From positions 1,240,001-1,304,000 of the forward strand of contig NZ_KZ686269.1 in NCBI RefSeq assembly GCF_003029735.1: a DNA stretch of 64,000 nucleotides, given 5' to 3'. Of this stretch, positions 57,703 through 62,230 are shown in pieces; the first letter of the stretch is position 1, and each line of letters starts with the position of its first letter. The position numbers and the translations under genes were made by a program. The DNA comes from Pedobacter yulinensis. GTDB lineage: Bacteria; Bacteroidota; Bacteroidia; Sphingobacteriales; Sphingobacteriaceae. Under the pieces are notes generated by a model, which made no database searches, was not told where the DNA came from, and saw only the letters and a program-made list of their open reading frames with translations.

Positions 57703-57731
57703 GCCGGATTTACTCCGGCTTTTGTATTTTT
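57703..57731 (+). terminator. Terminator of the PepSY-like gene
   Basis: A 6-bp stem GCCGGA/TCCGGC with a 5-nt loop is followed by a T-rich tract. Confidence 0.8.
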
Positions 57732-57732
57732 G
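57725..57732 (+). promoter_or_regulatory. Putative -7 box of the NtrC-type gene overlapping the terminator
   Basis: TATTTTTG (TAnnTTTG) lies in the terminator T-tract, 24 bp before the ATG at 57757. Same arrangement as at 42317. Confidence 0.45.
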
Positions 57733-57756
57733 CGGTATTCTATAGCGAAACTACCC

Positions 57757-59094
57757 ATGGCCAGAATACTGATAATCGAAGATGATACGACTTTCTCTCA
57801 GATACTAGAAGCATTCCTGGGCAAACATGGCCATGAGGTTCAGGTACTTTACGACACCAGGTCATTTACCAGGCAGGCTGTGCCTGAACAGTTCGACCTG
57901 ATCCTGACCGACTACCGCCTGCCCGACGGTACCGGGCTGGATGTGATGAGTCACATACGGGACTACCAACTCAACATTCCCGCCATTATGATGACCGGCT
58001 TCAATGATGTTCGGATTGCGGTGAAATCCATTCAGATGGGAGCGCTTGACTATATTACCAAGCCGGTAAATCCTGACGAGCTGCTGATGGTGTTGCAGCA
58101 GGCACTGAATAAAAAAATGGCGCCTGGCCCGTTGCCAGCTGGGACGGCGCTGCCGGAAGATGACCTGATCAGAGGGAAAAGTGCTGTTGCCGCCAGGCTT
58201 TACGAGCACATCAATCTCGTAGCGCCAACCGACATGTCTGTGATCATTCAGGGCGAAAGCGGCACCGGGAAAGAACATGCTGCCCGAACCCTTCATCAGC
58301 AAAGCAAAAGAAAAAACAAGCCGTTTATTGCCATTGACTGCGGGGCGCTATCAAAAGACCTGGCGGCAAGTGAGCTGTTCGGACACGTCAAGGGAGCCTT
58401 TACCGGCGCTTTAAACGACAAAAAGGGCCGCTTTGAAGCGGCAGAAGGCGGAACGCTCTTCCTGGACGAAATTGGCAACCTGAGTTACGAGGTACAGGTC
58501 AAATTGCTCAGGGCGCTGCAGGAACGCATTATCCAGCCGCTGGGCAGTACAAAAAATATTCCCGTAGACGTGCGGATCGTATCTGCCACGAATGATGACC
58601 TCGTCAACAGCATTGCGAATGGAGAGTTTCGTGAGGACTTGTACCACCGGTTAAATGAGTTTAAGATCCAGTTGCCACCCTTGCGAGAACGGGGCGGCGA
58701 TCTGAAACTGTTTATTCAGCACTTTATCAACCTGGCTAACCGGGAACTGGAACGGCGGGTGGAGCAGGTTGCTCCTGATGCCATGGAAATCCTGTTGCAA
58801 TATGACTGGCCAGGAAACCTGCGGGAACTGAAAAACGTGATCAAACGAATGGTTCTGCTTACCCCGGGCCATGTGGCCGAAAAATCGTCCCTGCCCGAAG
58901 AAATGATCTATGCCATTCGGCAGCCACAGCGCAGCAACCATTCAGATCTGAAAGCCCAGAACGAACAAAACGAAAAAGTGCTGATCCAGGAAACGCTGAT
59001 CAAAGTAAAGCACAATAAATCGCAGGCAGCCAAACTGCTGAATATTGACAGGAAAACGCTTTACAATAAAATGGAGCGATACGGGATCGAGTAG
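57757..59094 (+). CDS. NtrC-family sigma-54-dependent response regulator
   Basis: A 445-residue activator of sigma-54 RNA polymerase. Receiver domain (about 3-115) with phospho-acceptor D52 in LTDYRLP and Lys in TKPVNP. Central AAA+ domain (about 140-370) with Walker A GESGTGKE (about 167) and the sigma-54 loop GAFTGA (about 213). Fis-type HTH at about 405-445 ([19 protein letters not shown]). No histidine kinase is adjacent, so its signal partner is encoded elsewhere. Confidence 0.94.
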
Positions 59095-60759: not shown

Positions 60760-61830
60760 TCAGACTTTTTCCTTTTGGAACAGCGCCGGAATCGTTCCAA
60801 GGAGAATTTTCAGGTCGAAAAGAATGGAATAATTCCTGGCATAGAAGTTATCCAGCTTTTTGCGTTCCGTTTCTGACATGTCTGCTTTTCCCCGTTTGCT
60901 GATTTGCCATAGACCGGTCAGCCCTGACGGCCCCAAAAACCGCATGGACCATTCGTTTGAAGTCAGCATTTCAGCTTCGTAAAGCGGCAATGGCCGGTTG
61001 CCGACCAGCGACATATCTCCTTTTAATACATTAAAGAGCTGAGGCAGCTCATCTATGCTGGTCTTGCGGATAAAATTCCCAAGCTTGGTTACCCGCGGGT
61101 CGTCTTTCAGTTTAAAGAAAGCACCACCTTCAGCCTTGTCAGCATATTGGTTAAGCGCTGCCAGTTCTTTCAGCTGCGCGTCAGCACCTACCTTCATAGA
61201 TCGGAACTTATAAAAATCAAATATCCTATACCCCGTACCCACTCGTTTACTCTTATAGATCAGCGGTCCTTTCGAGTCGAGTTTGATCAGAATAGCAATG
61301 ATGAGCATGAGTGGAGAAAGCATGAGCAGGATACCAACCGAGGCCACGATATCGAAAACCCGTTTGAGCGTGGGTATCCGGTATGGGACGACCTTCGCAT
61401 TATTCAGGTTGGCCAGGTTAGGTCGAATCAGCCTGAAACGAACAAGAAAGTCAAGCCGCTCTTCGAGGTCTGCCGGGTTAAAAGGCGAAAAATACAGGTC
61501 ATGCACTTTCGCTTCAATGGCTTTTTTTCGCAGGGCGGGGTCTTTTTTTTCTGAAAGCAGGATGATGATGATACCGGCGGTGAGCAGGTTATCTTTAATG
61601 TAATGAACCATGCTGAGTACCGGATTTTCGGCTTCCACCTCCATCATGATCACATCAGGAGCGGTAAATATGGTCAGCGTATCGAGATAAGAACGAAGGT
61701 TTTCAAGATCACCGACAAGGTGCATTTCAAAATCATCGATCTTGCTGCCCAGAAAGTGTTCAGCCCGGCTGCCTGAATAAACAACCCGGCTCCGATCGTG
61801 GCTCCTGCTCATGGGACTAGTGCTGGACAT
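60760..61830 (-). CDS. Initiating sugar transferase with degenerate receiver-like N-domain
   Basis: A 356-residue protein. Residues 1-135 have the length and alpha/beta pattern of a response-regulator receiver, but the phospho-acceptor place reads PDVIMMEVEAEN (Glu instead of Asp) and the Lys-Pro end motif is changed to SPFNP. Residues 150-356 are a bacterial sugar (polyprenyl-phosphate glycosyl-1-phosphate) transferase: TM segment VFDIVASVGILLMLSPLMLI, then YKFRSMKVGADAQ, then KTSIDELPQLFNVLKGDMSLVGNRP and GLWQISKRG. It starts an exopolysaccharide chain on undecaprenyl phosphate. It overlaps the upstream response regulator by 14 bp. Confidence 0.88.
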   Translation of the reverse strand: MSSTSPMSRSHDRSRVVYSGSRAEHFLGSKIDDFEMHLVGDLENLRSYLDTLTIFTAPDVIMMEVEAENPVLSMVHYIKDNLLTAGIIIILLSEKKDPALRKKAIEAKVHDLYFSPFNPADLEERLDFLVRFRLIRPNLANLNNAKVVPYRIPTLKRVFDIVASVGILLMLSPLMLIIAILIKLDSKGPLIYKSKRVGTGYRIFDFYKFRSMKVGADAQLKELAALNQYADKAEGGAFFKLKDDPRVTKLGNFIRKTSIDELPQLFNVLKGDMSLVGNRPLPLYEAEMLTSNEWSMRFLGPSGLTGLWQISKRGKADMSETERKKLDNFYARNYSILFDLKILLGTIPALFQKEKV

Positions 61831-62230
61831 AATCTTCGCTCAAAATTTCAGAAATCTTATTTTTCAATACCTCGGGATTGAATGGTTTTGGCAGGAAGGC
61901 CTCAACCGTAAATGGCATCTCTTTTACAATCATCTGCAGGTCTTCTGCTGCAGAAAGAATGACCAGGGGAATGTCCCTGTAAAACCCGCTGATCTTGATG
62001 CTCTTCATGAAAGACTGGCCGTCAAAATGCGGCATGTTCATATCGGAAATGATCAAGTCTGGCATGTTCCCTTCTTCGAGCCAAAGGTGTGCATTGTAGC
62101 CGCTCGTTACCGTAAAAACCTGGTAAATCGGCGACAGGATGAAGTTCAGCAATTTCAGGATGCTGGGTTCATCATCTACAATGAGAATTCTTTTCTTATC
62201 TGACGGGGAAGGGTTTGCAAAAACGGGCAT
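61817..62230 (-). CDS. Single-domain response regulator
   Basis: A 137-residue CheY-like receiver without an output domain. The acidic pair in ILIVDDEPS, phospho-acceptor Asp in LIISDMNMP (about 59) and Lys in LPKPFNP are all present, so it can be phosphorylated. Its stop lies inside the start of the sugar transferase gene, which carries a related but degenerate receiver; a regulatory contact between the two is plausible but inferred. Confidence 0.9.
   Translation of the reverse strand: MPVFANPSPSDKKRILIVDDEPSILKLLNFILSPIYQVFTVTSGYNAHLWLEEGNMPDLIISDMNMPHFDGQSFMKSIKISGFYRDIPLVILSAAEDLQMIVKEMPFTVEAFLPKPFNPEVLKNKISEILSEDYVQH

Follow-up and report, generated by a model that had tools for sequence, protein, structure and literature searches.

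A CheY-like regulator beside a phosphoglycosyl transferase with a degenerate receiver: a candidate post-translational switch of exopolysaccharide priming in Pedobacter yulinensis and its relatives

The closest described system is that of the myxobacterium M. xanthus. According to PMC12802240, EpsZ, the initiating transferase, is controlled post-translationally by EpsW, a single-domain response regulator, in its phosphorylated form. Direct binding of EpsW to EpsZ and stabilisation of the dimer are supported in that text by proximity labelling, by activity in a heterologous host and by modelling. O'Toole et al. are cited there for small transferases that contain receiver domains and that may not work through dimers. 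Undecaprenyl phosphate is common to this first step and to peptidoglycan synthesis, which makes the priming enzyme a sensible point for the decision on slime production. A literature search, covering few subscription journals, gave no paper on the pair described here in Bacteroidota among the matches listed.

In this study, we analyse two adjacent genes of Pedobacter yulinensis (assembly GCF_003029735.1, genome of 4.31 Mb), located in a stretch of 64,000 nucleotides of contig NZ_KZ686269.1 (positions 1,240,001 to 1,304,000), hereafter called the window. One gene encodes a single-domain response regulator, the other a transferase with an N-terminal degenerate receiver. We propose that they may form a post-translational switch, in which the regulator, once phosphorylated, binds to the degenerate receiver and turns the enzyme on. 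The probability of this reading is put at about 0.62.

The gene pair and its domains

Both genes lie on the minus strand, the regulator first and the transferase second. The features are as follows (positions in the window).

61817..62230, minus strand: single-domain (CheY-like) response regulator with intact phosphorylation residues, 137 aa (PF00072)
60760..61830, minus strand: fusion of degenerate receiver and phosphoglycosyl transferase, 356 aa (open reading frame, PF02397, receiver fold)
61817..61830, minus strand: 14-bp overlap of the regulator and transferase reading frames (open reading frame coordinates)
62042..62044, minus strand: codon of regulator Asp63, predicted phosphorylation site (Asp in 79/79 aligned orthologues)
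61432..61788, minus strand: degenerate receiver domain, transferase residues 15-133 (AlphaFold2 secondary structure, VIA-align, profile)
61639..61641, minus strand: codon of transferase Glu64, phospho-acceptor position at the end of beta-3 (relatives' alignment)
60778..61365, minus strand: monotopic phosphoglycosyl transferase catalytic domain, residues 156-351 (PF02397, invariant motifs)

Because an alternative in-frame ATG at transferase codon 7 (61810-61812) would give a 4-bp gap instead of the overlap, the adjacency of the two genes is certain and the exact overlap is not. The two frames overlap in 68 of 78 relatives when the longest open reading frame is taken. By transferase protein, the closest relative is found at Pedobacter locus L005 (90% identical).

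The regulator matches PF00072 alone (74.5 bits) and carries the intact phosphorylation residues D19, D20, D63, S93 and K115, the signature of a single-domain response regulator. D63, S93 and K115 occur in all 79 aligned orthologues; D19 and D20 occur in 78, the remaining row being gapped there. Against the EpsW model NF041866 the protein reaches 38.9 bits at a cut-off of 200, and it is not classed as an EpsW orthologue. In 60 regulator/transferase pairs of the class sample described below, the phospho-Asp of the regulator is kept in 57, the other three having Glu (two) or Ser (one). The partner regulators at L186 and L195 have Glu at the phospho-acceptor position and are natural Asp-to-Glu forms of a live partner. 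In a genome of the same genus (G080, L131 9361-9765), the regulator has Asn in the acidic pair and Ser at the phospho-Asp, yet it heads an exopolysaccharide (EPS) operon; judged by these residues, it is a natural dead partner.

The catalytic part of the transferase matches PF02397 at residues 156-351 with 203.9 bits (E 1.9e-60, cut-off 27). The DX12P motif of the re-entrant helix (D160-x12-P173) and the Asp-Glu catalytic dyad (D260-E261), both as defined in PMC12802240, are invariant among 51 aligned sequences. By these two signatures, the predicted protein is a monotopic phosphoglycosyl transferase. It does not have the build of the large monotopic transferases of WbaP/EpsZ type, since the stretch of 155 residues that precedes the catalytic domain is modelled as a receiver. 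A Pfam search at E 0.1 gave no match to PF13727 in this protein; the positive control, the genome's own large transferase (L129 16189-17574), does match it. TIGR03025, the NCBIfam model of large transferases, aligns from residue 67 below its cut-off, so that kinship with the accessory domain of large transferases may exist. In the AlphaFold2 model of the catalytic part, pLDDT falls below 50 at residues 188-221, 226-246 and 299-317. Eight distant transferases (L091, L092, L094, L098, L099, L102, L104, L105) have spaced Cys residues in an insertion of the catalytic domain that is absent from the window protein; this insertion might bind metal.

The N-terminal part has no Pfam match above cut-off when the full-length protein is searched. 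Searched alone, it hits PF00072 at E 0.028; among aligned relatives, 13 of 22 N-domains do so at E up to 0.1 (best 0.00036). The AlphaFold2 model, built on 51 sequences, has the five alternating strand-helix units of the receiver fold in receiver order at residues 15-133, with block pLDDT of 77-94 for residues 11-130. Nearly all Foldseek matches listed are titled response regulators or receivers, and VIA-align superposes them over about 115 residues with Z about 16-17 and rmsd about 2 A. With a profile of the N-domain, receivers of hybrid kinases elsewhere are detected at E about 1e-10. We considered whether the domain arose from the regulator by local duplication; the profile matches hybrid-kinase receivers about as well as the partner regulators, and we therefore claim no origin. 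The original prediction had described an intact CheY-like neighbour overlapping by 14 bp and had set the fold of residues 1-135 beforehand as its refuting check. The neighbour is as described, save that the overlap depends on the start chosen, and structure prediction gives a receiver at residues 15-133.

The phospho-acceptor position of the transferase receiver

Among 81 close relatives, 80 carry Glu at position 64 and one carries Asp. In the AlphaFold2 model this position falls at the end of beta-3, the normal site of the phosphorylated Asp. The remaining residues of a phosphorylatable receiver are largely missing. At the place of the acidic pair, residues 18-21 read Tyr-Ser-Gly-Ser, with no acid in any register, and none of the 81 close relatives has an acid at columns 19-21. 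The receiver Lys position is Ser115 in the window transferase and Tyr in 51 of the 81; Ser93 is present. With Y-S-G-S at 18-21, E64, S93 and S115, the domain is not a phosphorylatable receiver.

Across the class, 20 of 60 N-domains have Glu at the phospho-position, 14 have Asp and 26 have neither; the most divergent alignment rows are unreliable, and the pattern used cut some domain ends short (L153, L167). Five of the 60 retain the Lys. Acids stand at both columns 20 and 21 in 2/60 (L145, L171), at least two acids stand in columns 19-22 in 7/60, and the acidic pair, Asp and Lys come together in 0/60. The N-domains of L202 and L203, two loci outside the class, are still receivers recognised by Pfam and keep the Lys, the Ser/Thr and the first acid together with Glu.

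A phosphate-mimicking Glu is expected to work via Ser/Thr and Lys in a site that is otherwise intact. The original prediction rightly placed a Glu at the phospho-acceptor position. It added that such a Glu often mimics the phosphorylated state. On this reading, the transferase receiver would be locked on and would set enzyme activity, with the regulator as a modulator. The near-invariance of Glu64 in close relatives (rank 11 of 119 N-domain columns) fits such a role, as do the Glu-bearing domains of L202 and L203 and PDB entry 2jb9, titled constitutively active PhoB D10A/D53E. However, the acidic pair and the Lys are lost in the window transferase and the residue drifts across the class; moreover, changing Asp58 of EpsW to Glu abolished EPS in M. 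xanthus, as stated in PMC4671073. We consider phosphate mimicry by Glu64 improbable. Since the rest of the phosphorylation site is gone, the conserved Glu64 is more likely a structural or interface residue of this clade, and the N-domain is more aptly described as a degenerate receiver that has a live counterpart. Because L202 and L203 still combine Glu with the first acid, Lys and Ser/Thr, the domain could conceivably have started out as a phosphate mimic.

Recurrence and gene context of the pair

In 78 of 80 relatives of Sphingobacteriaceae type, the regulator adjoins the transferase. The two exceptions are L041 (Hufsiella) and L045; in the latter, 95 bases separate the start of the transferase from the end of the stretch. 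When 395 genomes of the class were searched with the regulator profile, a set of single-domain proteins ranked above the receivers of hybrid kinases. Rows of at least 110 bits in frames below 200 aa were taken, giving 66 rows in 65 regions, the window's pair included; two rows of G253 share L190. Five further rows that reach this score lie in long hybrid frames and were set aside, and L196-L198, which repeat L161, L156 and L154, were not counted. A transferase lies within 240 bp downstream of the regulator in 60 of the 65 regions, 54 of them within 40 bp, a rate that is biased because the profile was built from known pairs. The regions with no adjacent transferase are L172 (a contig of 3,086 bases), L184, L189, L192 and L193. 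Pairs occur in at least 57 of the 395 genomes, spread over 18 families; this is a lower bound because few candidates were scored per genome, among the matches listed. The pair is widespread in the class and not a local oddity.

Of 296 genomes searched across the phylum, 32 gave a match to the regulator; 11 of the 32 fall outside the class, and the loci of seven of these 11 were examined. L202 and L203 have receiver-bearing transferases. At L204, L206 and L209, the regulator adjoins a transferase that has no N-domain, and the N-domain is therefore not needed for pairing. The short stretches of L211 and L212 contain no adjacent transferase. Directly upstream at L204 lies a protein with HATPase, receiver and Hpt domains, by its domain content possibly pointing to the kinase there; L206 and L209 are alike by eye. 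No natural fusion of regulator and transferase was found at four places with mid-size open frames (L125-L128), and no regulator of this kind stands beside the other three PF02397 proteins of the P. yulinensis genome.

The neighbours of the pair belong for the most part to EPS synthesis. With families assigned by Pfam on cluster representatives, the fetched stretches of the 80 relatives contain an outer-membrane efflux protein in 66, a Wzz/Wzc-like protein in 62, a hexapeptide transferase in 56, a Wzx-like flippase in 45 and Wzy-like proteins in 49 and 11 (two clusters). None of these genes is present in the stretch of L005, the nearest relative. Ten distant loci were read over longer stretches. 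Downstream of the pair, six of them (L115-L119, L123) have a gene of ~250 aa with no assignment, followed by a Wzc-like gene; in the other four (L120, L121, L122, L124), the fetched stretch contains no EPS operon.

In the window, too, the pair stands apart from the EPS operon. About 153 kb away, at C2:1139358-1147780 (L217 3359-11781), the genome has an operon of efflux, Wzc-like, glycosyltransferase, Wzy-like and Wzx-like genes; the Wzz and GNVR matches of its Wzc-like protein are below their cut-offs. None of the four PF02397 proteins of the genome is encoded within this operon, which is left without a priming transferase. In Hufsiella, the regulator heads such an EPS operon and the transferase is encoded elsewhere, both being retained. 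The window further contains, about 1.7 kb from the pair, an NtrC-type sigma-54 response regulator (57730-59094, plus strand; receiver, AAA+ and Fis HTH domains). A relative of it lies directly upstream of the CheY-like regulator in L120 and L123; as relatives occur in 6 of the 128 loci scanned, we do not count it among the components of the system. A block of open reading frames at about 10600-35100 with ClpV-like, sheath-like and VgrG-like members is, by eye, presumably a type VI secretion cluster.

The distances between regulators and N-domains were compared in mirror-tree analyses. Given the catalytic domain, their partial correlation is 0.72 (104 pairs). In an operon control on 43 loci, the regulator correlates with the Wzc-like protein at 0.75 and with the N-domain at 0.71. 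Given all other genes, the partial correlation of regulator and N-domain is 0.38, against 0.16-0.26 for the regulator and other genes, which is only modestly above the operon controls.

The degenerate receiver might serve only for dimerisation or positioning, like the PF13727 domain, while the regulator controls something else, for example as a member of a phosphorelay. In keeping with this, conservation within the N-domain is highest in alpha-5 and beta-5 (entropy 0.86 and 0.89, against 2.35 for alpha-1, 2.63 for beta-2 and 2.02 for alpha-3), and EpsW itself had earlier been proposed as a phosphorelay intermediate, according to PMC4671073. Yet even with the other operon genes at a different site, as in the P. 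yulinensis genome and at L005, the regulator remains next to the transferase. We regard such a purely architectural role as unlikely, if less so than phosphate mimicry by Glu64.

A possible switch on the priming enzyme

In the proposed switch, the two genes would control the first step of a Wzx/Wzy-type exopolysaccharide after translation. A histidine kinase not encoded beside the regulator would phosphorylate it on Asp63. The phosphorylated regulator would then bind the degenerate receiver of the transferase, which would act as a docking and relay module rather than as a phosphorylation site. Binding would promote the active state of the enzyme, and the active transferase would move a sugar-1-phosphate onto undecaprenyl phosphate. 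Docking and activation are proposed by analogy with the behaviour of EpsW and EpsZ; we infer the binding, its phosphate dependence, the sign of activation, the sugar and the kinase.

Several observations suggest a switch: the pairing in 78 of 80 relatives and throughout the class, the EPS context, the matching operon without a transferase, the retention of both genes in Hufsiella, the combination of live regulators with degenerate N-domains, and the precedent of EpsW/EpsZ. Others weigh against it, namely the transferases without N-domain at L204, L206 and L209, the four distant loci without an EPS operon, the Ser-bearing regulator of G080, the small margin of the distance correlation over the operon controls, and the different N-domain of EpsZ, itself a large transferase. 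Given the recurrence of the pair in many relatives, direct switching of the enzyme by the signal is probable. Control of the first polysaccharide step at enzyme level, the last point of the original prediction, is in our view plausible, given the 18 families, the EPS context and the EpsW/EpsZ precedent.

The switch could also be of negative sign, the unphosphorylated regulator holding the transferase inactive until phosphorylation releases it. The sign is not fixed by sequence data, and the Ser-bearing regulator of G080 could be a fixed form of either sign; the parallel that has been tested, EpsW/EpsZ, is positive, however, and a negative switch appears to us very improbable. We offer a wider reading with some reserve, holding it slightly more doubtful than probable: in Bacteroidia and at least partly beyond, EPS priming may be gated by pairs of a live CheY-like protein and a degenerate receiver, the N-domain having evolved from a Glu-substituted, near-intact receiver (compare L202 and L203) into a pure docking domain.

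If the proposal is true, a direct two-component switch on the priming enzyme, in print found only for a myxobacterium, would be common in Bacteroidota. With the live and the degenerate receiver as two small soluble pieces, the mechanism would also be readily dissected.

The pair resembles EpsW/EpsZ in that a single-domain regulator acts, or here would act, on the phosphoglycosyl transferase that initiates a Wzx/Wzy EPS pathway. EpsZ belongs to the large transferases and has both a transmembrane bundle and an accessory domain in the cytoplasm, whereas the enzyme of the window has a degenerate receiver and no bundle. Like WbaP-type large transferases, it combines the catalytic domain with an N-terminal alpha/beta accessory domain; in WbaP this is PF13727 with a dimerising beta-hairpin (PMC10942596), in contrast to the window protein. 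It shares with the small monotopic transferases of O'Toole et al. 2021 the fusion of a receiver to a small transferase, and may belong to their receiver-containing set. We infer a control of EpsW/EpsZ kind that would act on a small transferase with a built-in degenerate receiver and would be widespread in the class.
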